From Phytophthora colocasiae (Eukaryota > Oomycota > Peronosporomycetes > Peronosporales > Peronosporaceae): a stretch of 64,000 nucleotides of DNA. Below, in pieces: positions 3,512 through 46,022 of this stretch (its first letter is position 1; each line of letters begins with the position of its first letter). The stretch spans positions 806,001 to 870,000 of the forward strand of contig JAGKQI010000020.1 in the NCBI GenBank assembly GCA_018806915.1. The letters run 5' to 3'. Position numbers and translations under genes: made by a program. The notes below the pieces were generated by a model. That model saw only the letters and a program-made list of their open reading frames with translations, searched no databases and was not told where the DNA came from.

Positions 3512-4319
3512 TTAGGCAAGCATGGCTTGGATAGCATCGATGCGAGCGAAATATTCCTTCGTAACCTTGTTTGCGATGGCCTTGCGTAGCTGCTTCACCT
3601 CATCGTCTCCGCGGATGTCGTCTAAGAAGGATAAGACAGCTTCAAACTCGTGCTCGATGCCTTGCGAAGCAGCCAAAGCCTTCGGTCTGGTCGTCTGCGG
3701 CACCTTCTGCACGGATTTCTTAGACACAGGCAGAGATTCTGTAGCTCCTTCGCCATTTTCCTCTTTTTCGAGACGTTCCAGCTCAGCATCCACGTCGTAC
3801 GAGTCCCACTTCGTCTTGAGTTTATTACCTTGCGAGTCAAAATGGTAGTCTGCAACGAAAGCATTAGCCTAAATAGTACGCTATCGAACCGACGTATAAA
3901 ACTTCAATAGTCTTCAACGTACAGGAATTCAACGTGGAGTTGGCAGCTGGGTCCTCCTCCTCCGGTGGGTGACCAGCTTCCTTCTTCGTCTCATACTCCA
4001 CCAGCTCTTTCGCTTGCGACTCCAAGTGTATTAGACGCACCGAAACTTCCGTGGCAATGAGCTCCACTTTACGTAGCAGTTTAATAGCTTCTCGACGCTC
4101 CTTCAGCTCACTAAGCCAATGCAAGCCACACGTCCAGTCAATCGCATCATTAAAGGTTAAACCAACAAAATTGTACAGAAGTAGCCGCAGTAATTCGTAG
4201 CCAACTGCATATAAATCACTATGTTGTACATACTTGTATCGTTGATACTGCCAGCACACAAGCGGCACGGCCGCTACCGCCGCGGTTGCTGCCGCTACTT
4301 GCCACACACGGCTCGACAT
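3512..4319 (-). CDS. membrane-anchored coiled-coil hypothetical protein
   Basis: Two-exon gene of 244 residues: exon 1 4319-3923, intron 3922-3850 (GTACGT...GCAG), exon 2 3849-3512. Joining restores one frame (phase-1 junction, ...LNSYYHFDSQGNK...). An upstream in-frame TTG is not needed; ATG at 4319 gives MSSRVW. The N-terminus has one hydrophobic segment (about residues 5-22), suggesting a single anchor in a membrane, possibly mitochondrial. The middle (about 55-115) is amphipathic helix; the C-terminal about 60 residues (HEFEAVLSFLDDIRGDD...) are helical and vaguely like a BAG domain, though I would not name it so. No family recognised. The tail overlaps nothing; the 130-bp gap to NKAP suggests tandem transcription on the minus strand. 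Confidence 0.65.
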
Positions 4320-4447
4320 CTGAAGTGACAATCAAAGAATATAGCATTAGCCATTCGCTATTGCGACCGTCTACGTAATTAACCGAATCTATTTAATTCG
4401 GACTTTAACGAAGTCACTTTAAGAAACGTTTCTAAAAGCGCCAGGAA

Positions 4448-5341
4448 ATGGGCAAGAAGACTAACTGGACGTCAATTGAAGACTCGACGTTGTGCCGTGT
4501 GTGGCTGAACGTCAACGACCAGAAGACATCGGAATTCTGGAATGTGGTGCGCGATATATTCCATCAGGAAGTGGACACAGCAGTGGAGCGACCGCTGACA
4601 GGGCTCAAGGTCCGTTGGAGCCGCATCAACCGGGAATCGCAAAAGTTCGCAGCGATTTTCAACGAGATTCAGAGTAAAGGCATTAAGCAGGCGGAGGAGA
4701 ATAAAGTGCCAGGAGATGCCGCTACTGTGGCGCTTTTGTCGGAGCAGCAGTGGGTCGACGACGCCAAGACCGTTTTCCAGCAATTATACGACACCAAATT
4801 CCCCTTCGAAACCTGCTGGAGACAGCTACGATATGCTAATAAGTGGCTACAGTTATTTACCAACTCTACCAACACTCCAGCGGAGATGATGAAGGCCTTG
4901 CCTGCGTCGATGATGGAGGAGAGTACTGCTGCTGCACCGTCGCCGGCGTCGATTTGCAGCGAGGACGAAATGGCTCCAACGAGCAACGAGATGTCGACTG
5001 GTACCGGTGCTAGAGCTTCTTCAGTCGCAGCAGTAGCGGCAGTTGCTGTCGCTAGTCAAGCATCGGCGAGTGTGAACGACATTCGTTGCAAACGGCGAGC
5101 CGATGATCATACAACCAACGAGCAACTACAGCAGCAATTCGGATTGACTGCTGCGCTGGTGGAAGAGCTCAAACGACAGAACGACTTGCTGGAAGATCAA
5201 AACACCATCGCATTGCTAAAAGTCAACTCGGAGTTCCCAGATGCCGAGGCACGACAATGCTATCAGTTACTACGAGCTCGTTACATGAAGAAAGCACGTC
5301 GAAAGCATGGGCACGACCACAGCAACGACCAACTTGTCTAA
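4448..5341 (+). CDS. SANT/Myb-like, NAM-associated-type DNA-binding protein
   Basis: 297 residues from an ATG, single exon. Residues about 5-60 (NWTSIEDSTLCRVWLNV, FWNVVRDIF, LKVRWSRINRE) follow the pattern of the Myb/SANT-like domain of plant and protist proteins annotated as no-apical-meristem-associated: ED..LC.AW, FW..I, L..RW..I. About residues 95-140 (WVDDAKTVFQQLYDTKF, CWRQLRYANKWLQL) match the second half of that architecture. A serine/alanine-rich linker and a C-terminal helical segment rich in Gln/Glu (about 210-290) follow. Such proteins are often domesticated Harbinger-type transposon DNA-binding proteins; whether this one is a host regulator cannot be told. It is divergent from the gene at 3512-4319, with about 130 bp between starts. 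Confidence 0.65.
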   Translation: MGKKTNWTSIEDSTLCRVWLNVNDQKTSEFWNVVRDIFHQEVDTAVERPLTGLKVRWSRINRESQKFAAIFNEIQSKGIKQAEENKVPGDAATVALLSEQQWVDDAKTVFQQLYDTKFPFETCWRQLRYANKWLQLFTNSTNTPAEMMKALPASMMEESTAAAPSPASICSEDEMAPTSNEMSTGTGARASSVAAVAAVAVASQASASVNDIRCKRRADDHTTNEQLQQQFGLTAALVEELKRQNDLLEDQNTIALLKVNSEFPDAEARQCYQLLRARYMKKARRKHGHDHSNDQLV

Positions 5342-8221: not shown

Positions 8222-8322
8222 GCCGATACAGGTACTCGTATTCAACATGAAAGTGCTGCTCTTTTGTTCACATGGTTGACGGAGCAGACTCTGCTGTAGA
8301 GGTATTCTTCACAGAGCATGAT

Positions 8323-10014
8323 TTAAGCGCACATCTCGTCCACAATGTGGTTGGAAAGAATGTGGTGAGGGTCAAGCTCATCGCGAGCCTTCTTGAACTT
8401 GTCGAGCGGGTATCTCTTTTGCAGACGCTCGCGCATTTTCTGGCGCTCATCAGCATCATCCGGCCACTCGATCTTCGCCCAGTGCTCCGTCGCTCCATAC
8501 GGCTCCATGAAGTCGCGGTACATAGCGTAGAACTCCATGAAGCGGTTCTTGATGGCTGTGCGAACCTTCTTCTCCGCCGTTGGCAGATAAAGGATAACAC
8601 CCACCCACGAGAAGATCTGGTCAGGGTTGGAGGACGATGCAGGGCTCATTAAGGAAGTGCTGCGGGTCGTCCAGCGCTGCTCGATTGGCGAGTGCGCCGG
8701 GATGTCCTCCTTGTCAATACGCTGCAGAAGCTTCTCCATGAAATCCAGATCCAGCGTGCCGGTAGTCGGGAACGAGACCTCCTCTACGAGCTGTTGACCA
8801 CCACAGTCAAAGCCGATGATATCGTCCGAGTACGCGACCCGGTACCCTTCGCTCAGCTTCCAGAACTGCTTCTCCACCTCGTTCACACGGATAACGTGCT
8901 GCTTGTTGAGAGGGTTGATCTCGAGCAGTTTGTCACGCATCTTGGTGAAGCTCCAGTCGAGATAGTCAGGCTCAGGGTTGCCCTTAGTGAGCTCTAGATA
9001 CAGCTTGCGGGGTGCCTCCATGCGCACCTTGTCGCTGTACTGCACTGGTGGGAAGCGCTTCTCGTTCAGTGGCTCATCAGCTTGAGCACGACGGCACTGC
9101 ACCACCACCACAGCATCCGTGTACGGGATCCACATGTAGCGCAAGTGCTGGAACTCAACGAGCCATCGGTTGTGGTTCTTGCGGATCTCATCCAGCGTCA
9201 TCACTGTGGTCTTCTCGATCAGCTTGTGCATGGGCACACACTGCAGAGTGACCTTCGTCACCACACCAAGCGCTCCCAAGCCACACTTGGCCAGTTCAAA
9301 TAGCTCTGGGTTCTGCGTGGCACTGAGCGTCATCTTGCCCTTTGCCGGAGTCACGATCTCCATCTCGACGATCTGGTCGTCAATGGGCGGGATGCCGGCA
9401 CCCGTTCCGTGGCATCCAGCCTGACAGATTCCACCCACCTGTTGTGGACGAATAGACGCCACGTTCTGCATGGTCATGCCATAAGCACGCAGCTTGTCCA
9501 GCAGTTCTCCGACGATCACTCCCGCCTCGACAGTCACCTGGAGCGTCTCCTTGTCCACCTTGAGGATCTTGTCGAACAGTGCCAGAGTCATAAGTGCCTC
9601 GTTGACGTCAGCTTTGCCGGGCGCTTTGCCCGAGAAGCCCAAACCATTCGGGGACACGCCGGCGCCCATGCACCGCAGCTTCTGGTTCTTGTCATGGTAC
9701 GTCTTCAGTAGTTGCTGCACCTCGTCCACAGTCTCAGGTACGTGGAAATTCTTAGGACGGCACTCGTGTGTGGCCGACCAGTTGATGAACTCGTGATGGT
9801 CCTCGCTAAGTGCCGCGTCCGTCAGACCAGCCGACAACCCCACTGCAGCCAATGCTGCGCCAGCCACAGCCAGTGTAGCTGTCCGCTTCAAAGAGTCCCG
9901 TGAGGATGAAGCGCGCTGACCAGCTGCACGTACAGAGTGGATATTGGCTGCCTGCACAGCGCCAAAGTGAGAGCGCGAGCGTAGCGCGCGGACGAGCATC
10001 GTGGGCTTCAGCAT
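8323..10014 (-). CDS. L-galactono-1,4-lactone dehydrogenase-like FAD oxidoreductase
   Basis: 563 residues if translation starts at the ATG at 10014; an upstream TTG frame extension is ignored. An Arg/Ser-rich N-terminus (MLKPTMLVRALRSRS) looks like a mitochondrial presequence. One hydrophobic segment (about 45-65, LAVAGAALAAVGLSAGL) follows, the usual layout of plant GLDH in the inner membrane. The FAD-binding domain contains GAGVSPNGLGFSGKAPG and GCHGTGAGIPPIDDQIVEM. The C-terminal aldonolactone-oxidase domain contains HWAKIEWP and ends DPHHILSNHIVDEM. The family oxidises L-galactono- or D-arabinono-lactone in the last step of ascorbate/erythroascorbate synthesis. The exact lactone and the electron acceptor (cytochrome c or oxygen) cannot be decided from sequence alone. 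Confidence 0.88.
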   Translation of the reverse strand: MLKPTMLVRALRSRSHFGAVQAANIHSVRAAGQRASSSRDSLKRTATLAVAGAALAAVGLSAGLTDAALSEDHHEFINWSATHECRPKNFHVPETVDEVQQLLKTYHDKNQKLRCMGAGVSPNGLGFSGKAPGKADVNEALMTLALFDKILKVDKETLQVTVEAGVIVGELLDKLRAYGMTMQNVASIRPQQVGGICQAGCHGTGAGIPPIDDQIVEMEIVTPAKGKMTLSATQNPELFELAKCGLGALGVVTKVTLQCVPMHKLIEKTTVMTLDEIRKNHNRWLVEFQHLRYMWIPYTDAVVVVQCRRAQADEPLNEKRFPPVQYSDKVRMEAPRKLYLELTKGNPEPDYLDWSFTKMRDKLLEINPLNKQHVIRVNEVEKQFWKLSEGYRVAYSDDIIGFDCGGQQLVEEVSFPTTGTLDLDFMEKLLQRIDKEDIPAHSPIEQRWTTRSTSLMSPASSSNPDQIFSWVGVILYLPTAEKKVRTAIKNRFMEFYAMYRDFMEPYGATEHWAKIEWPDDADERQKMRERLQKRYPLDKFKKARDELDPHHILSNHIVDEMCA

Positions 10015-29786: not shown

Positions 29787-30297
29787 CTTGCTTGCTCTCA
29801 CCGTCCGTCCGAGCAGTTTACACAAGGTAAAACCGTCCGAGCTCTCAGTCGACTGTTAGAATGTGACGGCGCCAAACGATGAGGACGAAGGATAGCGAGC
29901 TATTTACGGAGAGTATCGCTACCCCGACAACTCAATCTGCACAGGAATGCCTTCATTATCGCTCGCAGGTAATTTTGGAACAAAATATACATGTATACAG
30001 AAATATGGTATACAAAGTGAAGAAGAAGTGCGCTCAGTCGCTAGTGCTCGGAGAATGCCAGCGCGACCGACACCATTTGTGCTTATTGGGCAAATACGCA
30101 CGCCAAGTGGTCTTGTTCCGACCATAGCTCCAAGCGGCGTGCCTCTCGTCGCCTAATATCGCAGTTTCGCCGCCGCTGAGGCTCAATTGGCTCACCGAAG
30201 CGCTGACATGTGTGGCTGGCTTGCAGTGACTGCCTCTATATCGTTGCTAGCGTAACGGTCATTTCTCGACGTACGCCGGAAGCCAGAGACTACTAGG

Positions 30298-33003
30298 ATG
30301 CGGGTACTTGCCTCGGTTCTATCGCTTACGCTCGCTACAACTGCGGTCGATGCGCTCACCAATTTAAAAAGTGAATGGGACGCATACACCAGTGCATTGG
30401 TGATCCCCGAAGTGATCGACATGACAGGCGGCGGCAACATCGAGATGCAGATCGGTCGCGCCTCGCACAACTGGACGGAGGATGGTTCTGTATCGGGTGA
30501 CATCTACGGCTACGCGCTTAAGAACGCCACACCAACGTTCCCTGGTCCAACGATCAAGGTCGCTCGTGGTGTCCCCATTTCGGTCACATGGTTTAACGAG
30601 CTGCCAGCACCACATCTTCTTGATGACTACGTGGAGACGAGTATTGCCATCGCCGAATCACATTGTTATCCGTACTGTGGTGTGCCAACTGTTGTGCATG
30701 TCCACGGACTGGAATCACCGGCCAAGTACGATGGCTTGCCGACAAGAACGATTTACAGCAACCAGTCACAAAAATTTGTGTACCTCAACAACCAGTCTGC
30801 GTCTACCAAATTGTATCATGACCACGCCAATGGACTAACGAGATTGAATGCGTGGGCGGGACTCATGGGTGTTTATATTGTCAACGACGCTGATACAGAG
30901 GCCGAAATCAACGTGGACGTGGAGACCGACATCCCTATCATGATCGCTGATCGGTTGATCAACGAGACGGGTGCGCTGATGTACTCGGACGACAACTGCC
31001 AGACCGGCATCACGCGTTGGGTACCTGAATCGTACGGTTCAGTGAATACAGTGAATGGTGTCGTCATGCCATTTGTCGATGTTCCACCGGCCCAGGTTCG
31101 CCTCCGAATCACTAATGGTGCAAACGCTCGTCATTACAATTTGACGGTGCCTTTTGCTGGTCAATGCAAGCTAATCGCCAAGGATTCTGGGTTTGTGAAG
31201 GTGCCTGAGGATGTACCGTCACAATTGGTGATCTTTCCTTTCGAGCGGGTGGAATTGTTCTGCGATTTTACAAATGAGGAGGACGGCGCGACTTATGACA
31301 TTGTCGACCTCCCAACGGTTGCGGTCACTACGACGTATGATGCCCGAGTGATGCAGTTCCGTGTTTCTGCAAATTTGAAGACGGATACTATGACAGCGCG
31401 CACCTTGCCATCAACTCTGGTGAAGCGCAAAGACCTGAAAAAGCTGTACCAGGAACTTGGCGGTAAGAACCGCTCAGTTCTTCTGGGTGAGATGGACGTG
31501 TCGTTGAACTGTCCGACGAAGAGTTTGATTCGATATCGTGGAATGGAGATCAACTCCACCACCATTAAGAACACGCTTGCTTGCACAAAAGGGAAAGTGG
31601 AGAAATGGCATTTTCAGAACCCGACGGATGATCCACACCCATTTCATTGGCACCTCGTAAATGCACAGTGTGGCGCCAGTGAAGATGAGGTCGACACTAA
31701 TGCGCTCAAAGATGTGGTGGTCATCCCAAGTGCAGGGCTGGACCGTGCCTCTACGACGGTGACTCAGATCTGCTACGTAGCTTGCACTCCCGACGAGTTT
31801 CTCGTTGAGGACAGTGATCGATCACCTACTGACTACGGATTTGACACCTCGGAACCGTATGTAGCGCACTGCCACATGCTCGAACACGAAGAAAACAACA
31901 TGATGAGTCTGTTTCAGCTTACTGATGGTGACGATGACGCGCCGAATGACGATGGATCGACCTCCACCACAAACGAAATCACGACTTCAGTGATCGTGTC
32001 TGCTATGGGCATGAGTGTTCTCGGAGCTATCGCTACATCAATGTCCATTCTTGTGATTTCAGTCGAGAAGCTCATGTTCCTAGGCAATCCACGATCTCTC
32101 TCAGTGGCGTTTGCGCTGTCTGCTGGTGTCATGATTTTCATCGCGTTTGCCGACCTGTGGATGGAAGCTGTCACGTTCTACAGAGCTGCATATACTACTG
32201 GTGGAACTGCTGACCCAGAGGCATATGAAACAGGAGCGACCTCAGCAAGTGCAGGTGTATGTGACAATACGTGTGCAGGTAATGCCTGGCTTACCACCAT
32301 GGGAGCATTCCTATTCGGAATGGCTTGTATTCTTCCTGTAGAGTACATTGTTCACATGACCGTGGAGAAAAAGGGCTCGTATTGGGATCAGCAAAACGAG
32401 AAAGAAGAGGATATCGAGGTGGCGAGTGCTAATACTTCGCCATGCGTAATGGAATCGCGTCGTAACATGAACCTGCTTGAGACGGGCAGTAATGAGGACG
32501 CCAAACTCTTGGCTGCGGCTCAGCGGCAGAAGGAGCAGTACCGACAAGCTGGCATGATGACAGGGATCGCAATTGCCATTCACAATTTCCCTGAGGGTCT
32601 AGCACTCTTTGTTTCATCGTTGCAAGGGATGGAGACTGGGATCATTCTTTCACTCGGAATCATTTTGCACAACCTGCCCGAAGGTGTGGCAATTGCTGCG
32701 CCTGTGTACTACTCTACTGGAAGCAAGCTCCAAGCGTTTAAATGGACTGCTATCAGTGGTATTGCACAACCGATGGGTGCTGCTGTAGGTTGGGCAGCTG
32801 TATCGGGTGGCCTAAGTTACGCTCTGCGAGCAACTCTATATGCTGTGGTGGCTGGTATGTTGGTGTGTATAGCAGCGAAAGAACTGCTACCAGGAGCCTA
32901 CCGGTTCGACCCCAAAGGCAAGTACTTTGTGCTATCGTTCTTCTGTGGCATCTCTATTATTGCGTGCAGCATGGTGCTGATCCATTATGCTGGTTCAGAC
33001 TAG
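30298..33003 (+). CDS. multicopper oxidase fused to ZIP metal transporter
   Basis: 901 residues in one exon. A signal peptide (about 1-20) leads into a CotA/bilirubin-oxidase-type multicopper oxidase. All four copper motifs are visible: VHVHGLES (about 132), LYHDHANG (about 173), HPFHWHL (about 448) and HCHMLEHE (about 524). A Ser/Thr/Asp linker (about 540-560) joins it to a ZIP transporter with about 8 helices. These include the paired metal-site helices IHNFPEGLALF (about 762) and LHNLPEGVAIA (about 792), with a charged cytosolic loop between. The oxidase should face outside or lumen. Oxidase plus transporter in one chain recalls the Fet3-Ftr1 ferroxidase-permease pair, so oxidation-coupled Fe, Mn or Cu uptake or handling is plausible. 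ZIP normally moves divalent metal, so the oxidase might also serve protection. Domains are certain; the coupling is inference. Confidence 0.9.
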   Translation: MRVLASVLSLTLATTAVDALTNLKSEWDAYTSALVIPEVIDMTGGGNIEMQIGRASHNWTEDGSVSGDIYGYALKNATPTFPGPTIKVARGVPISVTWFNELPAPHLLDDYVETSIAIAESHCYPYCGVPTVVHVHGLESPAKYDGLPTRTIYSNQSQKFVYLNNQSASTKLYHDHANGLTRLNAWAGLMGVYIVNDADTEAEINVDVETDIPIMIADRLINETGALMYSDDNCQTGITRWVPESYGSVNTVNGVVMPFVDVPPAQVRLRITNGANARHYNLTVPFAGQCKLIAKDSGFVKVPEDVPSQLVIFPFERVELFCDFTNEEDGATYDIVDLPTVAVTTTYDARVMQFRVSANLKTDTMTARTLPSTLVKRKDLKKLYQELGGKNRSVLLGEMDVSLNCPTKSLIRYRGMEINSTTIKNTLACTKGKVEKWHFQNPTDDPHPFHWHLVNAQCGASEDEVDTNALKDVVVIPSAGLDRASTTVTQICYVACTPDEFLVEDSDRSPTDYGFDTSEPYVAHCHMLEHEENNMMSLFQLTDGDDDAPNDDGSTSTTNEITTSVIVSAMGMSVLGAIATSMSILVISVEKLMFLGNPRSLSVAFALSAGVMIFIAFADLWMEAVTFYRAAYTTGGTADPEAYETGATSASAGVCDNTCAGNAWLTTMGAFLFGMACILPVEYIVHMTVEKKGSYWDQQNEKEEDIEVASANTSPCVMESRRNMNLLETGSNEDAKLLAAAQRQKEQYRQAGMMTGIAIAIHNFPEGLALFVSSLQGMETGIILSLGIILHNLPEGVAIAAPVYYSTGSKLQAFKWTAISGIAQPMGAAVGWAAVSGGLSYALRATLYAVVAGMLVCIAAKELLPGAYRFDPKGKYFVLSFFCGISIIACSMVLIHYAGSD

Positions 33004-33438: not shown

Positions 33439-33618
33439 AGTAAAGTAAGCTCTGACTCTGAATGCCAAGTACGACCCAAATGCCAACGTCGCGGTGGTGG
33501 GTGGCCAGGCCTTCGTAAGCGGCTAATAGACGCGCTCCAGCAACTTCGGGTGCTCATCTTCGTTCACGTCGAAAACCCAACGAAATGCTTAGAGATACGC
33601 TTAACCCTATTGCGATAC

Positions 33619-33702
33619 AGGGGCGCTCACAGCGACCTTTAATGCCTTTTTCAAAACACGGTGAAAAATATCGCTACAAAAGGGCGCTGTGAGCGCCCTT
33701 TT
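33619..33702. repeat. left subterminal palindromes of the piggyBac element
   Basis: Two related palindromes. The outer one, 33619-33640, is imperfect (GGGGCGCTCACAGCGACC). The inner one, 33678-33702, is perfect, with 11-bp arms AAAAGGGCGCT / AGCGCCCTTTT around GTG. Counterparts occur at the right end, so these are likely transposase-binding sites. Confidence 0.7.
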
Positions 33703-33951
33703 GCATAAATTACAAAAAAAAGATATCTTGTTTTGAAAATGATTAATTTCCACCAATCAAAATGATGTGATATAAACGACGGCTTGAGCAAAGATTTAAC
33801 ATGTTGTCTTGTTGTGTAAAAACCATACCTTTCCCATCTTGACTCGTATCCTAACGCTGGAGGACCACGTATTTTATCATACAAACTTTCATATACATGC
33901 ACGAAGTGTTAGCCCATTCATTTTTTAAGATACACGCATTTTTCAAGCTGC

Positions 33952-35210
33952 ATGAGGACTAAGTTCCTCGATTGGGAAGACAAAGCGCTTGTGCAGCTAG
34001 CTGCTGAGTTCGAGCGCCAGGGAATCCGAATTACGTGGAGTTATGTAGCGCGCCGTATGGCTCAATCGAAACGAACAGGGCGTGAGCTACAACTACGTAT
34101 GGCTAGTCTGAAGCGGACACACGGACGAAGGCTGGCCCAGTTCCCGCGCTGCTTCTTCGGCAGATTCTCCACGCCCTCTTCCGGGCGTAGACAAGCTCTC
34201 GCAGATAATCAAGTGACTCGACCGTATAACCCACTTTTTGTTGGTCCAGGTGTTGCAGTCGAACTGCCAAGAAACAACGGCAGCCCAGTACCAAACATTT
34301 CTGGGCTTGTGACGGGTGCAAGACCAGCGCGTTGTGGTGAAGACCAACGTGTACGTGATTGTGATGGCAACCTCCAGAAGTGGCTTGTATCGCATCATCT
34401 GAACCACATGTATGTACGCAAGTTATCAGCCATGGAAGTGGTGAATTACGAAAATCTAGCGTCGTTCAAATTGGGAATGCTAACTGCGAAAGTGGTGTCG
34501 ATGGCTGTAGTCGTGAATCGAGCGATGGAAGAGGTGGTCGGGATGAAACCGGTGGAAAGGCTTCTAGGCGAGTCCATACTGAAGAGGAAGCTGCATGCCT
34601 ACTTCAAGCAATGTTTGGAGATGTTAGGCCCAAGGATATCCGCCAAAAGACTGGCCGGCCACAAGAAAATGCTGGAGAAATTCTACCCGCCGGTGTTGCT
34701 GTGATGATCAAGACCATTGGCCCTCTTCGACCAAGAGATGTCTTCTTAGACATCGGTGCTGGAATTGGAAATGTGCTGTGTCAAGTGGCGTTGACCACTG
34801 ACGTTGGTATTTGTGCTGGAATCGAAATGCGGAAGGAGCTCTGTGACCTAGCTACGGAACGGATTGAGCTCCATACAAAAGGCCTTCCTAGTCTGAAGAA
34901 GGTTGCACTGAAGTGCATCGATGTACGGGATGCTGCGTTATCGCGAAAATCACCAGCGAGCAATGCAACTGTGATATTTGCAAATGTCTTCCTCTTCGAA
35001 GAGGACGCGAAATTGGTCGTCACACACGAGCTTGGAGCCATGGAAAAGGCTCGAATTGTTGTTGCCACCTCATTGTTTTGTCCTAGGCACCGAGCGACAT
35101 GCACGCAGCCATTCTGTAAAAATTGGCAATTAGTCCGTCGGTTCGATGCAGCATGTAGCTGGAAATCTGCTTTGCACCCTATGTATATGTACGAACGTAG
35201 GACGGAATGA
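33952..35210 (+). CDS. SANT domain + DOT1-like methyltransferase, transposon cargo
   Basis: Two overlapping frames form one probable gene. The first (33952-34704) encodes a SANT/Myb-like domain (FLDWEDKALVQLAAEF, ITWSYVARRM, LQLRMASLKRTHGR) and a helical middle. The second takes over around 34560-34600 and encodes a class I SAM methyltransferase of DOT1 type: GRPQENAGEILPAGV, motif I VFLDIGAGIGNVLCQVAL, the acidic GIE motif and ATVIFANVFLF. The switch needs either a short intron or a one-base frameshift; I could not decide. DOT1 enzymes methylate histone H3 Lys79. A SANT domain could bring the enzyme to chromatin or to the element. TAAAATAAAGACTT just after the stop contains a polyadenylation signal. 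It lies wholly inside the piggyBac element. Histone specificity is by homology only. Confidence 0.65.
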
Positions 35211-35446
35211 AAACTAAAATAAAGACTTCAATCATCGCGGTGGTGCTTTTAATGATCTGGGTTCTTCTCATATGCCTGTTGTGCTGCCCGAGATACTCAA
35301 ATACTTGTACCAGCGAAGGCAAGGTCTAACCTCGGCAACTACCAAGTGCAACACTCGAAAACGTAAAGCTAAAAGATAGTGTGCGCAAAACTGAGTGAGG
35401 TTTGTCCAGTGTTTGGCTCGGGCCGTGCGGTGAACTCTGACAACTA

Positions 35447-36478
35447 CTACACAAGTACAACTATTAGAAGCTCTACGGGTAAAAAGGGAACGATCGCATT
35501 CAAGTCGTCAACTGCATCTTCATTAACGTAGGTGCCGTGGTGGAGGCGTCCGTGTCGAAAGTCTGGGCCTTCTCGGCTGGCCGTCTCATCGCCGACATCG
35601 CGTCCGGCACGGCCACGGGAACCATCGGCGCGGAGCTGACGCCGCCAGCACATGCGTGGCATCCTGGGTCTGGGTCTGCAGATCTCCGTGACCATCGACA
35701 TCCTGTTCCCGGCCATCACCTTCTTCTTCGCCACGAGTTCCAGCTGGCTGTATCTCCTCTTGAACGTACCAATATCATCCACACACACAAAGCACGTCTT
35801 CACTTTAGCGGGGACCACGAGCTGACTGCGTCTTCCGAACGTCTGGTTAGCCACGCGCTTCATGTTCACGTACTTCTTAAGATGTTCGAGACTCATGAGT
35901 CGCTGCCGCAGTCCTTTAGCCGCCATCCACTGGGGTACCTTTCCTTTCAAGTCTGTATACACCGCCTGTACAATATCCAGCGTCTTGCGGTCTCTCTTGC
36001 TCTCAATGAACACGATACCCAAGCGGTACATGCTTCCCCTCACAAAGCCGTGGGTCTTCTCCATATCTGGACAGCTCTTTATCTTCATCGAGTGTAAGCA
36101 ACGAGCAAAGCCCCTTCATTCATCAGGTAACGCAAAGCGGCGCTGAATCTCCAAGTAGCAGTAGTCTCTGTTGCGCAAAGTACGGTGAGCGTACTGCTGA
36201 TCAGCGAATACCAATGAACCCGACCTTGACGTTCTCCACTCGAATACTATCCATTTTCTTTGTGTATTCCCATTTGAGACCGTCCTGGAACTGCTCGTCG
36301 TCGCTATCGAGGCTAGAGCCGGTGCTGTTGAAGGCCTCTCTGGCGGAGAAGCGCAGTGACTAGAGCTGGTGCTGTCGAAGGCCTCCCCGACGGAGAAGCG
36401 CAGTAGCTCGGAGAACGACGGGCAGTTGAACTTCTTCCATTTGGGCTGCTTGGACCGGCTAAAGTGCGGGAGGGACAT
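35447..36478 (-). pseudogene. START-domain-type protein gene, broken
   Basis: Minus-strand reading gives two collinear pieces in the same frame. The first (36478-36119, MSLPHFSRSKQPKWKK ... YLEIQRRFALPDE) and the second (36088 on, IKSCPDMEKTHGFVRGSMYR ... DRKTLDIVQAVYTDLKGK) match the START-like proteins common in oomycetes. An in-frame TGA at 36116-36118 sits where a tryptophan codon would be expected (ALPDE-stop-RGFARCLHS). After about residue 200 the reading loses resemblance, so the 3' part is probably shifted. START domains bind lipids; this copy should be inactive. A 47-bp tandem duplication lies inside its 5' part (36314-36407). Confidence 0.65.
36314..36407. repeat. 47-bp tandem duplication
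   Basis: Two copies of a 47-bp unit starting TAGAGCCGGTGCTGTTGAAG and TAGAGCTGGTGCTGTCGAAG; they differ at a few positions, so the duplication is not recent. It lies in the START pseudogene. Confidence 0.75.
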
Positions 36479-36480
36479 GA

Positions 36481-36660
36481 TACAATTTGTAGTAGAGATT
36501 CATATGATATGAAACTATACAATTTGTAGTAGAGATGCATATGATATGAACCTATACAATTTGTAGTAGAGATGCATATGATGGTATTGAATATACAGCT
36601 AATAGAAGAGATGCACATGATTTATTACTTTACAATTTGTGGTATACTTGCATATCATTG
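36481..36660. repeat. 37-bp tandem repeat, three copies plus decayed remnant
   Basis: Units begin TACAATTTGTAGTAGAGAT at 36481, 36518 and 36555, each 37 bp. A degraded fourth TACAATTTGTGGTATAC lies at 36631. AT-rich, non-coding, just upstream of the START pseudogene. Confidence 0.85.
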
Positions 36661-37240
36661 CTGCCATTCAAACTTTCTTGCTAAAATACAACTCGGATCA
36701 CAAGGATGGATGCTGGCCGTCGTTCCCCCTCAGCCCAGCGCAGATCCGGTACCACCTGGCCAAATCCAATACCCCCAGATATTTAAAGTGTGCTGCTCAT
36801 GGACGTGAGCATCCTCCCTAAGAGCGCACCGATGCATTGAACGTGAACGTGGAGACAAGTGCTGTGATGCAACCAACCGTCCAAGGTGACTCATAGTCAT
36901 TGCTGGACCAGTGGAATCGTTGCTGCTTCACCGGCTAGATCTACACCATTTTGCAGCACTGCACTACGTTGATCCAAGATATCGAAAAAGAGTCAAGACA
37001 TGCAGAGGCATAGTGCATTGCTAAGGTTCTAGATTCCTCAGTGGAAGAGTGGGTATCAAATGTAGCTAAGCGATATACTTACATTTTGCTACTCCTACAG
37101 ATCCAACTGCAACCAGGAGAACGTACTCGCAACGCTGCTAAAGGAGAAGTTCTCCACAGGGTAATGCTGTGTTCTGTTGGGTCAGTGGATTCTTGTTGCT
37201 GACCGATGTGCTCTTACGTCAGACTGTTAATGGCTCGTGT
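36661..37240. other. non-coding interior of the piggyBac element
   Basis: No convincing coding sequence or RNA seen; probably the degraded 5' part of the aldo/keto reductase copy and its former flank. Confidence 0.4.
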
Positions 37241-37270
37241 GTATCAACTGCATCCCGTCTGAGGTGATCC

Positions 37271-37841
37271 ATGAGCTGCCTGGTCGACGTCATGAATAGG
37301 GAGTTAGTACACTGGGTGTCGCTCGTCATCACCACGAAAGCTTTCTTCGGAGCGAAACGATTCGACTTGGCAGATCCGAACGACCTCGGACTCAGCAGCA
37401 AACACATCGTTGGAGGTGCTAAGGGATCGCTCAAGCGCCCACAACTCGACTACGTCGACGTCATCTTCTTCCGCCAACCTGACCCGTACACGCCGATTGA
37501 GGAGACTGTACGAGCATGAAACTTCGTTATCGAGAAAGGTTTGGCGTTCTACTGGGTCATAAGCTCTTGGAAGTCGGCCTATGTCACAGGAGCGTGTGAT
37601 CGCCGACCGTTTTGGACTGATCCGTCCCATCGTGGATCAGCCCGAGTACAGTTTGTTGGAGCGGACGAGGGTGGCACACGAGTACGTGGACTTGTACCCG
37701 AAGCTGAAGCTCGGTCTTACCTCGTGGTCTCCGCTTGCTTTCGGAATCCTGATGGGGAATACAGTACTTGCACGCCCGAAGGCTCCCGCATGGAGATCAC
37801 CGGATTCTACGACCCTAAGTGAAGCACCGAAGACGAAGTAG
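37271..37841 (+). pseudogene. aldo/keto reductase (K+ channel beta-subunit-like), broken
   Basis: Fragments in at least two frames align in order with the Kv-beta-like aldo/keto reductases of oomycetes. The first piece reads [37 protein letters not shown] and [10 protein letters not shown] then [13 protein letters not shown], and ends in a TGA at 37517-37519. The next continues NFVIEKGLAFYW after the stop. The frame then shifts to IADRFGLIRPIVDQPEYSLL, VDLYPKLKLGLTSWSPLAFG. The N-terminal strand with the start is missing. Stops and shifts make it inactive. It sits between the START and transposase remnants, in the cargo part of the element. Confidence 0.7.
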
Positions 37842-37981
37842 TGCAGACGACGAGCTGATACAGGTGAAGATGAAGACGGAGGTATTCAAATGAGTTTTTT
37901 ACTACATGTTAATTTGGCGAACTGCTGTTGGTTTGTGCGCAGGTTTCGCGTCTACGACTTCGAGCTGTTGCCTCAACCTTG

Positions 37982-40715
37982 CTAGCGCTGAACTTCGACA
38001 GATATTGCCTTTGCTCGTAAAGAGCCCTTGAGGTAAATAAAATCGATGATAACGCTCCCAACAAGTCCAAGTTGTATCAGGACACGTCCACGGCTTGTGG
38101 CCTCGCGATGAACACCACTGCAGAGACACACACCGTGTGTATGACAGTAGTTGGTAATTTCTGTAGGATATCTACCTTCCCATCTGCATATAATGCAGCG
38201 GCGGCGTTTTCGACTTTTGTCTTCGTATACTTGCTTAGATGTCACCGAGGCACAGGCAATTACAGATGGACCGCTATGTCCCTGGTTGGGTCGGGAACCT
38301 AGTGGTGTAGTTCCTGTCGACTGGCCAGCCTCAATGTCATGCGGTATCCGGCTTCCAAATAGCATCTGACCTTCGCTTGCCACTTCTTTCCAATGACCAT
38401 TGATGAGTTCGTGTACGAGTTCCGTCATAAAGACGCGGTGGGGGTCACGGGTGATATAGTTCGGTCTGACAAGACGTCGCGTCAAAAATGCATTGGCCCT
38501 CGCGACATCAATCAAGGCCAGTGCCAGCTTCTTGTGCCAGCGCTTGAATGAGTGTCCATCTTCAATAGAAAACCGCCCTCGAATCTGATCCAAGCGGTCT
38601 ACGCCCTGCATGTTACTGTTATAGGCCCGAATGCATGTGGGAGCAGTAAACTCAACGTGTTCGTGGGCTACCATGCGCGTTACGGTAGATACTGAGGAAG
38701 CGTCCGCGGTCGAGACCATATTCACGATATTCCCGTCGCACCAAGAGGCTGCTACCATGCGATGCTCTAACGAGACTGCCAGGCGTAAATCTCCGCGGGT
38801 ACAATTGTCGTGATCTTTGTCAAGGATCGTGTGCCCTGGGAAATGCTTGCTGTTGGTTCGGATTGTTCCCCGTCCATAAAGGCCTTTAATTCGGAGTTCC
38901 TGGAGTAGTTGCACCGAAGTGTAGTAGTTATCCATGTTCAGCACTCGATTTGTTCCAAATAACGGGCGTGCGACCTCTAATACGTGCTGCCGAATCTTGG
39001 CGACTTTTTCCAACTCTTCTCGCAGTTGCTCCGTCTCATTCGCCGTAACCACCCCTTCAAGTCGATCCGCAATGTCAGACTTATTGCAGTGCAATCGGTA
39101 GTTTAATGCAATCCAGCTTGTAGAACAGCACAACATGTACAGCCTAAAATGATACTTTCCAGTAGGCTTCGTAGGGTTGAAAACGATGAGATGGCGACCT
39201 TGACGCGATCTACAAGCGACGCTGGCCTCATCCAAAGCGACATCACGCCCAACAACCACATACTTGTCGCCTGTCACCTTCAGTAGATTCAATAGCGGGC
39301 GGATTCGAGCAGCAGCGTCTTTGTGTAAGTTAGTGGGATTTGCGTTGAAGCTGAGACAACGTCTAAAGAGTTTGAAGCGGTTTAGACTCATTACACCATC
39401 CAGAGACGTCGTACATCCACCAAATATGCGATCTTCTGGTTGTGGTCCCCAATAGTTTGAGTATTCCCTTTGTCGTTTAAAGCCATGAAAAAAAGAATTC
39501 CAATAAACGTCATCAATTCAGGTAGCCTGAACGGGCTTGATATCCGGATCCCCTTGATGATGGCATACTGGTTCGTCTCGTGAAGGACTTGCCTCGAGAA
39601 ATACAAAGGAATATACGCGAAGAAGCACGAACAGGCCGAGCGCTCAAACATGTACTTGTACTCAGGTCGAATACGCGTCTTGGTAGTGCCATCTGCGTGG
39701 GTGTATAAATCCATCGGCTCATCAACTTAGTCATCAGGGGTAAACCGCATGTTTCGTATTGCTTCAACTTCAGCTAGGTTCGATGTAAGCTGCGCAGGAA
39801 ACTCGTACTCGTAATACTCGCCGGCTACATCCAGGTCAGCTGCATCACCAACTTCCAATACATCAGCCCCAGCCGAATCAGTCAACACGGCCCACTCCGG
39901 GTTCTTCAGGTGTGTAACCGAACGATAATTTTCAATGCCTGCTTGAACCAAGCCCACGTTGATATGCTCCACAGCGCTTTGAAAATGTGTGTCCAACCAC
40001 CGAATTTGAAACAGCGACGCAAATCTTCCTTTCGTTGGGCGACGGCAGACTCGACCGACGATAAACGCTGTTCCAATCACTCTATAACACTTCGCCTTCA
40101 TCCACTCTTCTTGTGCAGGCGAGAACGCCACCAATTTGTCAATAAAAATATCCTCCAAAAGAGTCAAAGGAGCCCTGGTAGGTGTTTCTGCAATATACAC
40201 ATGATTAGAGTAGCAACCTTTCACTAAGAAACCTCACATGTAGTTCGCACCTTGTCTGTGGCCAGTACCCGCCGGAATTCTACCAACGCTATCAACTTCT
40301 TCGGCTTCAACGTCAATGACTTCTCGTCTGTTGTGAGTTTCGTCATCCGTAGCAGCGACCCGACCGCGTCCTTCACCAACCACAGCTTCGTACGGGCCGT
40401 CGCGAGTACTTCGGCCGTCTGCCAACAGAAATCACAGTTAAAATCGTAGCGTGGTGTTCCACCCTTCACGCGTTCCTACCTTTATCCCTGCCCGTACCGG
40501 CAGAATTGCGATTGACGCCCTCAACCTCGACAGCATCAACGTCGATGATCTCACCGCCCTCGTCATGTACACCACCCGTTGCGGGGCTTCGACCTCGGAT
40601 CTGTGCGCCATTGCCGTCTAGAACTGATTCAACGTCGGTGATACCGCTGCTGTGGTCGTGTTCTCCACTCGTAGCAGTACCACGACCTCGACCTTCGCCA
40701 CGAACTCGACCGCGA

Positions 40716-40754
<39 letters not shown>

Positions 40755-41403
40755 TGGCCACCCCCACCTTCTCGTCCGCGGCCTCGTAAACGAACGTCGT
40801 CACGAGATCGATCGACGTCTATCAGCAGCAAACGCACGTTAGATTAGCAACTTTAAATGCTGCAACACTACACACCTACTCACCTCGTGCCTGGCCGGTA
40901 CTGACGGAACTGCCACCAATGCTCACAGCCACGTCTTGTTCGCCACTCGTAGCAGCAATTTGATCTCGTCTCTGACTACGTCCACCATAGCGCCCTTGAT
41001 CTTTCTGGTCTCCACGGGTACTATTGTCGTCTGTCACCAGCACACATAATGTTAGATCAGTACCTTAACGTATTCCGCATTGCATTGCACCTGTGTCCGT
41101 CGAATCAAAGAACGCTTCTGGCGTTACAAAACGTAGGACTGCTTCTTCCCCGAGGAGAAAGTCCTCTCCTTCTAACCCTCTTGGGTTTCCACCAGGCTTT
41201 ACGTAGCGATACCGACTCTCCAGTCCTGTCGGTGGCTTCGAAGTCCACCCTTCCCTTCGTAACTGGACCCAGGCATGCCTAAACTCGATCAACCCGCAGC
41301 TTGTGTTTGATGGTGTCTCCGACACAGAAGATCTGGTAACACGCGTTCGCTTGCTTGGATGGGGGGCCTGCGTCGCCTTGGTGCGCTTCCTAGTTCCAGA
41401 CAT
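37982..41403 (-). pseudogene. piggyBac transposase, multi-exon, broken
   Basis: The gene begins at ATG 41403 (MSGTRKRTKATQAPHPSKR). Three following exons encode Arg/Gly/Asp-rich, mutually similar modules (about 41041-40885, 40826-40490, 40410-40250), each joined in the same phase. The DDE domain starts near TPTRAPLTLLEDIFIDKL. The DDE_Tnp_1_7 catalytic parts are visible: VALDEASVACRSRQGRH, VLNMDNYYTSVQLLQELR, SWCDGNIVNMVSTADAS. A C-terminal Cys/His cross-brace (CIICRWEGRYP ... CHTHGVCLCSGVH) follows. Two lesions are seen: an in-frame TAA at 39727-39729 (in TPDD-stop-VDEP) and a one-base loss near 39468-39475, after which the frame reads NYWGPQPEDRIFGG and then VMSLNRFKLFRR. Without readthrough it makes no active transposase, so the element is probably non-autonomous now. 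Confidence 0.85.
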
Positions 41404-42034
41404 CTCCCTCCTGCACTTCCAGTAATGAGTAGGCAGCAGAGCCGTCAATTTTTATAAATTGTGACGGATACACTTTTTACTGTCAGTATTACGTTCGGAA
41501 AATGAATGGCATTTGATAACGGAGGTTATTAGATCCTAGAAATGCAGCTGTTGATGGTATAGAAAATTTAAAATTGATGCACATCATAAATGAACTTCAT
41601 ACTAAAGCCAAGATACATGCACCATTGTTAATGAAATCCACTGCATATCTTTATACTTTCGATAGAGCATAAAAACAATTTCCCACACAACTGGCGTGGA
41701 AGTGAATTAAATTGGCATTCTTGCACTTCATTTTACGAAGTGCTACACGCAGTGGCAGTCTGGAAGTACACGAAGCACCAGCCGAAGGCGAATCCAGCCA
41801 TCGCAACATGTCACCTCTCTACGCACTGTCAACGTCGTCAACGCAAGGTTACTTCGTTGGTCATAAACTGGTGTGGGGCGATAACTTTCAGTAAAGAAAA
41901 ATATTTTCTCTGTAAGATATGTTTTGGGTACTCTGTACCATTTATTGAGCCAATAAGCGACGAGTTCGTCTAGTCGTGCAAAAAAATAATTAAAAGCCAA
42001 TCAGATGGAGCTTAGAGTAGTACAGTGATTTTGT
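41404..42034. other. non-coding right arm of the piggyBac element
   Basis: AT-rich sequence upstream of the transposase start. No gene supported. It should contain the transposase promoter and ends in the right subterminal palindromes. Confidence 0.45.
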
Positions 42035-42163
42035 AAAAGGGCGCTCAGAGAGCGTTTAATCGTCTCCTTTTTCTACAAAGTATAGAAAACGTACGATGGT
42101 TGTGCTCTCGTAACCAAGCTGAACTACCGTGATTTTCTAAAAGGGCGCAGTGAGCTCCCTTTT
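42035..42163. repeat. right subterminal palindromes of the piggyBac element
   Basis: Two copies of GTGATTTTxTAAAAGGGCGC lead into palindromes at 42035-42058 (AAAAGGGCGCTCAGAGAGCG) and 42139-42163 (AAAAGGGCGC AGTGAGC TCCCTTTT). They are related to the left-end palindromes in reverse orientation. Confidence 0.7.
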
Positions 42164-43681
42164 AAGAGGCATTAACTTAAAATTGTATACTATACTTTAT
42201 CAAGGTGGCGCACGATAGGGTTAAGCGCCGTGTTCAGGTGGAAGACACTTGCGTGGAAGGCGCTGCTACAGCTCCAGATGACGGAACAAACCAATCTACC
42301 CAATCTTCTCCAGGAGTTGGACACGTGCCAGGAAGAGAACATTGTCACGTTACTGTCCTCGATTTTGGCTCACGTCTTGTGTGGGCATGTCAGCGAGTTT
42401 AGACCGCTCTTGAACAAGCTCCCTGCTCACCGTCGACGGTTGTTGGAAGCGTTCTTCGACGCCCACAACCTGGATACGCTCGAGCCACCGTGCAACCGAC
42501 CAGACTTTGCGTCCTGGTTTTCTTTCCAGACACAGACCAACTCGATTCCTGCGCCACTGTCTCTTCAAGACCTCGAACAATTCCCACACGTCAAAACGTG
42601 GCAGAATGACGCAGTCAAGCATCAAGAGAAATGTGCCGCTTTTGAGGACAAGGCTAGACGAGCACGTACTATCTCCAACTACAAGTCAACAATCAACATT
42701 TTAAAAGTCAACGCAGAAGACCATGCGAGTGATATCGAGTCCGCGAGGCATGAGCTGGCGTCGCTGGAGAAGGAGGAGAAGCGGATGGTTCGTCGCATGC
42801 GGAAGTATCGACTCTTCCCGACGTCGAAACAACGCAAGCTCTTGCGTCAGTTCATGGGTACATGTAGGTGGACATACAACCAAGCCGTCGCACACTTCCG
42901 TAAAACCAACGTTTACAGAGCCAATTTGCTGCGTGACCTGTACGTGACGAAAACTACCAGCAAAGATCAAGTGTATCCTGAAGACATGGGCCCGCCTCCG
43001 GAGTGGGCGTTTGATACTCCAAAAAACTTTCGCTTTAACGCGCTTCGCAGATTTCAGTCCAATGTGAGAAGCGCCTTTAGCAACAAGATGAACGGCAACA
43101 TAGCAAAGTTCAAAATTGGTTTCAAAAACAAGAAAGAGAGCCGATTCTTCACGATATGTGAGGATGCCAAAGATGCCAGGATCACCTACGTGCCAGGTCA
43201 GTCGCGTGCGTTGTTGAGCATCAGCAAACTGAAGGATATTCCGATTCGTTGCGACCCAGGGCTATCTATCGAGAACGAGATCCAGATCTTGAACGACAAC
43301 GGCTTCTGGTACGCAGCAATCCCTACATTCGTTCGCCCTAGTGATAATGTGAACCTTGGACGCGCAGTGGCCTTAGACCCCGGTCTGAAAGCCTTCATGA
43401 CTGGTATGGACCTGTGCGGGAACAGCATTCACATTGGGCGAGGGACCCGAGATCACCTGGACAAACTGCGTGGTAAAGCAGCAGACGCACAGAGGGTAAT
43501 GGCTGAGATCAAGAATCTGCACGGCCATCGTACGGGCAAGCAATGGAAAACGTTCGCGAGAGCCAAGCGAACATTTGACTGTGCTACCGCTAAGATCAAG
43601 AACTGTGTAAAAGAGCTCCACTATCAGACCTGCGCCTACCTCACGAAGCACCAGGGATAGGAAAAATACATTATCATTACC

Positions 43682-43704
43682 GGGGTCCGGACCGGGTCCG
43701 GTCC
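43682..43704. repeat. GGTCCGG-rich block, inverted mate at 46874-46890
   Basis: GGGTCCGGTCC at 43694-43704 is repeated exactly in inverse orientation at 46880-46890 (GGACCGGACCC). Both blocks bracket the recombinase gene and might mark the borders of an inner element, or be subterminal repeats of the hAT-like shell. Confidence 0.45.
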
Positions 43705-43879
43705 TCTCAAGCACTTTTTGTCAAATCAATGCGGTTATTGTGCTTTGAAGGGTTAAATAAACCGTTTATCTGACCGCGAGTCTTCTACAACTGGATAGGA
43801 TGAAAATCAGGGGATGGCGCGAAAAACCGCGACTTTTCACCATTAGACAATTTGCAGGTCACCTCCTAAGAGCAGCAAC

Positions 43880-46022
43880 ATGGAAGAGGAAGCTCGGATG
43901 CGAGTGGCCCTGAAAGAGTCCGTTCAACGAACTTACGTCAAAAGCGCAACAAAACGACCACAAAACACGCAAAGAGCTTACAACAACCGGCAAAAGGAAT
44001 TCTTAGACTGGTGTAGGTCAAAGGAATCTGCTTTTAACGACCTGACCCGATTCACAGTAACAGGGGAAAAACTACATCTCTTTCTCGAAGAGCGCGTAAT
44101 TGGAAGGACCAAACGACACAAGAATGGAAGTAAAAACTGCGATCGAGTGGAGAAGGTAGGTCGCTCTACAGTGAATTCCTACGTAGCAGCAATGGTCGAT
44201 TTGTGGAAGCAACAATCTCGGGCAAAGGTAAACGGTAACCCATCCCCCCGTGACGAGGCGGTGACCTCGCTGTTGAAGCTGACTCAGTTTGAAGAGGACG
44301 AGAGGAAGCGAAACAATTACGAGGACCGTGGAGCATCTACTCTTTTGGATGGCTACACTAGAGTAGACCAAATTAAGGAGATTGCCCAGTTTTTTTGGAC
44401 TCCAGCACGAGATGCTGGCAAGTTACTTCGGAATTTAGTTGCTTTTCTCTTGAGTCACTATGCGCTAATGAGAGGCGAATCAGCGCGGATGATGAAGTTA
44501 GCGGATTTGCACACGTTGGTTCTCGAAAATGAAGGATATAGCGCATGCAGGGCCCTCGTCATGGTGATGCGCCAAGGCAAAACGAATCAAGTTGGCCGTA
44601 TTGAAGTCGGAGCCTGCATGAGGAGTAAATATGTGGAAATCTGTCCTCACGGAATGCTGGGATTTTACTTTTTCTGGCGGTGGCATGTAGAAGGCGAATC
44701 ATTTCCTGACTTTACCTCGTCCGAGTGCTGGTACCCTATCAAATTGTTAAAAACAGGTAACGATCCTACAAAACCAATGTCGTACAAAGTACACCACGAT
44801 GCTATCACGGCTGCGCTGACGCATATTGGTATTCACAGCAAAGCGAAAACCCACGTCGGTCGTGGTTCTGGATCGCGTATGGCTGATTTGGGGGGTGCTA
44901 GCGAGTCTCAGATACGCCGCCTGGGCAGATGGAATAACCAGTCAATGGAAAAGTGCTACCTTACATCCCTTCCACGAGAGGCTATGCGAACACTGGCTGG
45001 ATTTGAACCCAGCAGAGGCAGTTTTTTTGTTGCTCGTGCTTCCGTCGACCCACCAATGTCATTGCAGAGTAAAAGTCTTTCCCCAAGTGGAGATGTGGCA
45101 GCAAGCAATTAATGCAGGATCCGCAGAACAGTCTCTTGCAGCGGGTGGATTTCTCGAGTTACTACAATATCTCCGTAGCGAAGTGCTGCAGGATGCCGTG
45201 TTCTTACAAAGCTCAACTCCAAATCACCCGATATGGCAACACGCTATTTTCCATTCACCCGAATTTTTGGAGTATAAACATGCTGCAACACAAGCCGTGG
45301 AAGGGATGGAAGACCCGGCAGAACAACGCCTCCAGAAAGCCATTCCAGTGATGAATGCTAAAATCGATGGTATACATCAGGATTTGAGAAGCTCCTTATC
45401 CCAAATTTGCACAGCGGTGCACAAAGTGGAGAATACTCTCAGTGATGTTCTGCAGGTATTGTCTCCACTACGAGGAGGAACTGCTGTCGTCCAAGTGCAG
45501 CTTCTGGCCAGTACTCAGCAAGCTTGTAGTGATGCCGCTCAGTCTCGTCGGGCAGAGGCGACACCGGTTATCAATGGTTCACTAGATTTCCCGACACCTG
45601 GGCGATCCGGGGTAAATTCAAATCAGAGTGAGCCGCAGCATTTCCCGACGTACAAACTGCGCAGAGGGTTAGTGACTGTTCCAGAGCTGTGGGGGGAGTG
45701 GATTGGATTAGGCGGAGCTGTTGCTGTGCGCGAACTGGAGACCAAGTTCGGAACAAAGTGGTGTAGTGCTGATGAACGTCGTTTCTTCAACAGGAGGCGT
45801 CCAGTGTATAGATTAATTGCAGATCTGGCAGTCGAGATTTCGAGGCTTGCTGTGGTGCCCGATAAAACGGCAACGGATCATGTTATCAGAGCTCTAGAGG
45901 AGTACCGTCAAACTCACAAAAAGTCCCTCAACTGGATAGCAAAAAACTGTGATGCCATTCAAGATATTATCAGAGCTACAGCAGCATCACATTTCCAACT
46001 CGTTTCTACGAATGACCCGTAA
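43880..46022 (+). pseudogene. Crypton tyrosine recombinase with GCR1-like C-terminus, frameshifted
   Basis: Frame 1 (43880-45112, 410 residues) is a tyrosine recombinase: core-binding part QRTYVKSATKRPQNTQRAYN, then the catalytic first Arg in HYALMRGESARM. The His-x-x-Arg box is in KTHVGRGSGSRMADL, with GRW, and the tyrosine is in MEKCYLTSLP. The C-terminal part lies in another frame (from about 45070 to the TAA ending 46022): VFPQVEMWQ, a helical region, and LWGEWIGLGGAVAVRELE..., resembling the GCR1_C DNA-binding domain common in Cryptons. The switch coincides with the AAAA run at about 45069-45072 (LQSK / KVFPQV), so a one-base insertion explains it. The catalytic part is intact, so activity without the DNA-binding tail is possible but unproven. 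Confidence 0.82.

Follow-up and report, generated by a model that had tools for sequence, protein, structure and literature searches.

The window analysed here is a stretch of 64,000 nucleotides from the oomycete Phytophthora colocasiae (C94:806001-870000 in a genome of 92.5 Mb and 105 contigs). It contains an element of the piggyBac superfamily that has, in addition to a transposase, a gene encoding a Myb/SANT-like domain followed by a DOT1-class methyltransferase domain (Table 1). An earlier note on this stretch had placed the gene inside a transposon, which is borne out by the TTAACCCTAT ends, by the recurrence of the same 8.6-kb unit elsewhere and by a DDE_Tnp_1_7 transposase. Exact copies of TTAACCCTAT occur in the window only at 33601 (+) and 42215 (-); with at most one mismatch there are 8, compared with 1.67 expected. 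The terminal inverted repeats, formed by TTAACCCTAT and its reverse complement, start with CCC after TTAA. TTAA is present at both ends and the bases adjoining it vary between copies, as for piggyBac target sites. The 8,624 bp between the ends are found again in C57, C22 and C9 at 99.3–99.5% identity, the C9 copy being without its first 16 bp. More diverged copies are located in C31 (one) and C33 (two), and further copies in C22 and C93, where the stretch read covers the left part only. A search with the window flanks joined at a single TTAA gave 10 rows, of which 2 are the window's own flanks and 8 are uninterrupted matches at other places (90–92% identity; five of them on C100 at 2.05–2.25 Mb). 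Because the empty site is uninterrupted at these eight places, the element must have inserted into a repeat.

Table 1. Features of the element, in window coordinates.
Feature	Coordinates	Strand	Basis or remark
Whole piggyBac-superfamily element	33601..42224	.	Inverted TTAACCCTAT ends, 8.6-kb copies elsewhere, empty sites
Left terminal repeat TTAACCCTAT	33601..33610	+	TTAA is the target site
Subterminal near-palindrome GGGCGCTNNNAGCGCCC	33621..33637	+	1 mismatch; candidate binding site
Subterminal palindrome	33682..33698	+	0 mismatches; candidate binding site
First frame of the broken cargo gene (P0001)	33913..34704	+	First ATG at 33952
Myb/SANT-like domain	33952..34164	+	Family profile E 2e-37; Pfam 14.9 bits, below cut-off
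Second frame of the broken cargo gene (P0002)	34365..35210	+	
DOT1-class methyltransferase domain	34575..35201	+	PF08123, family profile, structure model and fold matches
Transposase, main piece	37982..39517	-	DDE_Tnp_1_7, E 1.4e-37
Transposase, piece in another frame	39391..39726	-	DDE_Tnp_1_7 16.8 bits, below the cut-off of 22.4
Transposase, N-terminal piece, stop-interrupted	39727..40233	-	No Pfam match; continuous with the rest in C9
Subterminal near-palindrome	42039..42055	+	3 mismatches; candidate binding site
Subterminal near-palindrome	42143..42159	+	2 mismatches; candidate binding site
Right terminal repeat	42215..42224	-	Reverse complement of the left repeat

DOT1 is known mainly as a host enzyme. 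The second frame of the cargo gene, P0002, belongs to this family by its match to PF08123 (E 3.6e-16, 59.8 bits, cut-off 23), and the DOT1 part of the family profile lies at L001 1711-2337. The SET domain has no match in either frame of the cargo gene, both fold and family being those of DOT1. The structure check of the S-adenosylmethionine (SAM) pocket called for in the earlier note gave a model with a predicted DOT1 fold and the SAM pocket kept. Rows 1–41 of the structural comparison made with the model are all DOT1 entries, and in the PDB all 20 of the 20 sequences that the family profile hits at E ≤ 1e-5 belong to histone methyltransferases of the DOT1 family. Both results speak against a DOT1 fold acting on RNA, DNA or a non-histone protein, an alternative that is considered quite improbable. 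The pocket residues of the window protein align to those of DOT1L; the Gly-Glu loop, motif I and the post-I Glu are each kept in 26 or 27 of the 27 transposon-type sequences and in all 12 host sequences compared. Near the end of the DOT1 domain, a Cys-His-Cys-Cys cluster is shared by all 12 host sequences and, at each position, by 25 of 27 transposon-type sequences, human DOT1L having other residues there; it is a possible zinc site.

The Myb-like part lies upstream of the catalytic domain. The family profile, built from eight relatives that include other copies of the element and of which three are loci of this genome, matches the Myb part at L001 1088-1300 (E 2e-37). Two relatives exceed the Pfam cut-off with DOT1 in the same protein, namely P0022 (Myb_DNA-bind_6, 29.7 bits, cut-off 22.9) and P0028 (Myb_DNA-binding, 25.3 bits, cut-off 24.4), and the other eight proteins in the same test stay below it. 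Three helices are predicted in the Myb-like part of P0016. By the family profile, the Myb part is found upstream and on the same strand in 25 of the 34 distinct loci read. Both halves of the arrangement proposed in the earlier note, a DNA-binding-type domain ahead of a DOT1 fold, are present.

In the window copy the Myb and DOT1 parts are read in two different frames; the copies of C9, C57 and C22 (98–100% identity) have both in a single 432-codon frame. Since copies so nearly identical retain a single frame, the switch is a defect of the window copy, and an intron is not favoured. The window copy is probably dead. The earlier note had raised the possibility that no expressed intact copy exists; judged by their frames, open copies are present elsewhere in the genome. 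The transposase is also in pieces in the window and forms a single 777-codon frame in the C9 copy, covering positions 12–349 of the 349 of DDE_Tnp_1_7 (E 3.4e-46), as expected of a piggyBac transposase. Judged by eye, this frame presumably also contains the catalytic Asp triad and a C-terminal cysteine-rich domain.

DOT1-like genes are abundant in the genome. Searches with the window protein, PF08123 and a query from a second subfamily gave 142, 135 and 128 matches, respectively, which merge into 148 loci; the merging used 139 of the 142 window-protein rows (three second pieces of listed loci were left out), only the 18 PF08123 rows that add or extend places, and only the 38 rows that belong to the second subfamily. 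Three transposase searches, merged from the matches listed minus repeats, gave at least 238 loci. Scored from coordinates, at least 110 of these 148 loci lie no more than 10 kb from a listed transposase, and for at least 105 the distance is no more than 5 kb. Random placement in 2,000 draws linked 7.9 loci on average and 20 at most, under a uniform null that ignores transposon clustering and contig ends. The 110 linked loci are mostly convergent with the transposase downstream (81); the transposase is upstream on the same strand in 21 (one being the host gene, near a degenerate fragment), upstream on the opposite strand in 5 and downstream on the same strand in 3. Chance co-location is rejected on the random placement and on this orientation bias. 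Among hand-picked pairs (60 of 142 and 58 of 89 rows), all 22 with a DOT1 identity of at least 42% are convergent, and 11 of the 17 in the most distant class have the transposase upstream on the same strand; gene layout tracks relatedness.

A second, young subfamily is represented by nine full-length DOT1 matches at 95–100% identity, seven of them without an internal stop. The two copies read begin with TTAACCC at a common edge, and several copies have a distant transposase about 3.5 kb downstream in convergent orientation. The spread of DOT1-like genes by transposons suggested in the earlier note, and the copy count it called for, are answered by these 148 loci, most of which lie near a piggyBac-type transposase and not at transposon-free positions.

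The fixed, mostly convergent pairing with the transposase would also suit an enzyme that assists transposition, either by methylating the transposase or by marking chromatin for synapsis or target choice. In support, the cysteine-rich domain of PiggyMac, a domesticated piggyBac transposase, is described as binding the histone H3 tail weakly; the binding is, however, independent of lysine methylation (PMC8086355). Moreover, among the matches listed, 130 of the 238 transposase loci lack a DOT1-like gene at a distance of up to 10 kb; other piggyBac families here therefore go without DOT1 and transposition in general does without the enzyme. A role in transposition itself is considered improbable.

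Ratios of nonsynonymous to synonymous substitution rates (dN/dS) were obtained from six comparisons within the window subfamily and are 0.15–0.40 for the catalytic part, 0.06–0.46 for the Myb part and 0.35–1.02 for the linker. The transposase gives 0.20–0.27 (three comparisons, open pieces of three copies). Between subfamilies the comparisons reach saturation, and a ratio of 2.2 in one near-identical pair comes from very few changes. On this sequence evidence the enzyme is under purifying selection. A tree without an outside root was built from 39 chosen sequences (12 locus frames, P0002, 14 homologues, 11 host homologues and the host-type gene L039), and a 100/100 branch splits 27 transposon-type from 12 host-type sequences. 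Being grouped on one side of this branch, the transposon-type genes are not repeated recent captures. Among the best-matching candidates, every named relative of the transposon type in the databases is from Phytophthora, and the rest are environmental or genome entries; host-type relatives extend to Bremia, Peronospora, Lagenidium and Albugo. The relatives retrieved also include P. megakarya entries labelled 'histone methylation protein'.

The host-type gene L039 (C28:745855-746394) shares 97% identity with a protein of Phytophthora citrophthora, and the family profile finds no Myb part in its frame. The window gene is rejected as a host DOT1, L039 being without a Myb part and lying across the 100/100 branch. 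L039 is counted among the 110 linked loci; excluding it, 109 of 147 are linked. A degenerate transposase piece (C28:748899-749351) is located about 2.5 kb from it.

A captured host gene of no use to the element would fit the broken state of the window copy and of several more. Against such a passenger stand dN/dS values far under 1 for both the catalytic and the Myb part, a pairing kept across families at 30–50% DOT1 identity, and the separation of transposon-type from host genes by the 100/100 branch; this explanation is considered highly improbable.

The subterminal palindromes are candidate sites for the Myb domain, judged from sequence and position, and the transposase could equally use them. 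Four of the five palindrome matches in the window lie less than 200 bp from the element ends, and similar palindromic sites are found at the ends of four other element copies. The site was not found in three loci of other subfamilies.

The sequences establish the element, its ends and target site, a gene pair recurring in many diverged families, purifying selection, and the DOT1 fold with its SAM pocket. The cargo is read here as the second gene of a piggyBac-superfamily element whose enzyme is held at the element, methylates nucleosomes and alters silencing, a reading whose chances are put as evenly balanced. In the encoded protein, a Myb/SANT-like domain of basic character is followed by a linker that varies and then by the DOT1-class domain. 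The Myb-like domain would tether the enzyme to the element, with the subterminal palindromes as candidate sites, and the tethered enzyme would methylate nucleosomes, most likely at Lys-79 of histone H3 (H3K79). Lys-79 and its usual neighbours are present in all three H3 loci read. Methylation would in turn alter host silencing of the element, more likely keeping the element expressible. Anti-silencing is favoured because the carriers have spread recently, as indicated by near-identical copies and the young second subfamily, and the recurrence of the gene pair suggests that the transposon brings its own tool for the packaging of its DNA. The interpretation in the earlier note is thereby upheld in part, for the transposon cargo and the spread of DOT1-like genes; the marking of the element's own chromatin, the shielding from silencing and the guiding of insertion that it also proposed stay conjectural. 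A more specific version, possible but doubtful, is that this Phytophthora piggyBac clade consists of self-addressed nucleosome writers, in which the Myb domain of each family has co-evolved with the ends of that family and DOT1 writes H3K79 methylation on its copies. If this is true, with more than 100 copies against one clear host gene, transposon enzymes could be a main source of H3K79 methylation in these genomes.

Several observations weigh against this interpretation. The Asn of the NNFxF motif of human DOT1L is missing in 8 of the 27 transposon-type sequences; at this position the window copy retains one Asn, as do 19 of 27, with His in 5 and other residues in 3. On its own, the window Myb part matches Myb_DNA-binding of Pfam at only E 0.031 and 14.9 bits, below the cut-off of 24.4; the fold search, made with the whole model, listed only DOT1 chains and does not bear on the Myb part. 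The family profile finds no Myb part in the stretch read of 8 of 33 transposon-type loci (L013-L018, L020, L022). The number of palindromes in the window (5) is not unusual, being reached by 6 of 100 shuffles; only their placement is. Finally, 38 of the 148 DOT1-like loci have no transposase within 10 kb among the matches listed, and the 130 transposase loci without a DOT1-like gene count on the same side.

The sign of the effect is a further point. In the brown alga Ectocarpus, also a stramenopile, dimethylated H3K79 (H3K79me2) is described as associated with repression and as lying on transposons (PMC11541908, PMC12477816), which by analogy would count against anti-silencing. The same observation favours self-restraint, in which the enzyme would write repressive H3K79 methylation on its own family, sparing the host or excluding competitor elements, and an expansion of DOT1 is reported in brown algae (PMC13076208). 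A literature search gave no data on the H3K79 mark in oomycetes, and the full-length copies at 99.3–99.5% and the nine second-subfamily DOT1 matches at 95–100% indicate recent spread, with which mild restraint would still be compatible. Self-restraint is considered unlikely and is nevertheless a serious rival to anti-silencing.

Other features were noted within and around these elements. Between the two genes of the window element, a 222-codon frame without a Pfam match (35447-36115, minus strand) is partly kept in other copies and is perhaps captured host sequence; five 37-bp direct repeats of falling identity occupy 36480-36666. In C22, a window-type left part with DOT1 (C22:2730707) and a window-type right part with the transposase (C22:2750190-2755591) lie about 20 kb apart in opposite orientation and are perhaps one split or inverted copy. 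At L042, an inverted repeat of about 1 kb and 98.9% identity (3888-4880, 7937-8931) encloses a DOT1-like gene. C44:958362-958826 and C65:150037-150501 are DOT1-family with 310-codon frames; they appear in the PF08123 listing and not in that of the window protein, and no listed transposase is nearby. Just outside the window element, a 915-codon frame (30256-33003) combines Cu-oxidase_3 and Cu-oxidase_2 (multicopper oxidase) with a ZIP zinc transporter, an unusual fusion. In the region 42176-46022, a frame with a TnpB-type helix-turn-helix (HTH_OrfB_IS605), perhaps a Fanzor, is accompanied by Crypton-type frames (NDC10_II/GCR1_C), and the piggyBac element lies at the edge of the region.

To our knowledge, few transposons carry chromatin-modifying enzymes. 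HarbingerS and MuDR of Phytophthora are described as carrying a SET-domain histone methyltransferase (Kojima and Jurka 2014, cited in PMC12730594). Like the present element, they are DNA transposons of this host genus and carry a gene for a histone methyltransferase; they differ in the SET fold and the superfamily, whereas the cargo here has a DOT1 fold, joined to a Myb-like domain, in a piggyBac element. In Ectocarpus, Sola1-1 encodes a protein with ParB-like and DNA methyltransferase parts, which, as here, lies on the strand opposite the transposase (PMC12477816). This accessory protein likewise joins a DNA-binding part to a methyltransferase and is suspected of modifying its own transposon; in contrast to the cargo described here, it is predicted to modify DNA bases and belongs to another transposon superfamily. 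VANC of the Arabidopsis VANDAL elements, for which an action on noncoding DNA of the element itself, with a change in its silencing, has been proposed (PMC10398659), may be a working analogue; it lowers DNA methylation in a MuDR-type element, and the likeness is one of proposed action and not of sequence kinship. DNA transposons of fungi that carry TET/JBP (PMC12730594) also have an epigenetic enzyme as cargo, but this is a dioxygenase acting on 5-methylcytosine in another host kingdom.

With host DOT1/DOT1L and oomycete DOT1 (PITG_00145 in P. infestans; PMC4030286) the cargo shares the catalytic fold and SAM pocket, and with oomycete DOT1 also the Cys-His-Cys-Cys cluster; the host gene differs in having no Myb part in its frame and in its place across the 100/100 branch. 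Expanded hypothetical-protein families linked to piggyBac in P. megakarya (PMC7341134) were similarly amplified with piggyBac in the same genus. The main text of that paper is without the words DOT1, histone and methyltransferase; the likeness to the genes described here is one of piggyBac linkage. No report of a DOT1-type cargo in piggyBac was found in the literature, in a search that had Repbase and most subscription journals outside its range, so an earlier mention is possible. What appears new is the DOT1-type cargo in piggyBac, histone methyltransferase cargo itself having a SET precedent in Phytophthora (PMC12730594).

The interest of the finding lies in its breadth, age and testability, with DOT1 and a DNA-binding-type domain as a long-inherited second gene of piggyBac elements. 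It could account for the many proteins listed as 'histone methylation protein DOT1' in Phytophthora proteomes, and it provides a natural system of many families for testing how mobile DNA handles chromatin. It also raises the question of whether H3K79 methylation, where it lies on stramenopile transposons, serves the host as a defence or the transposon as a tool of its own.
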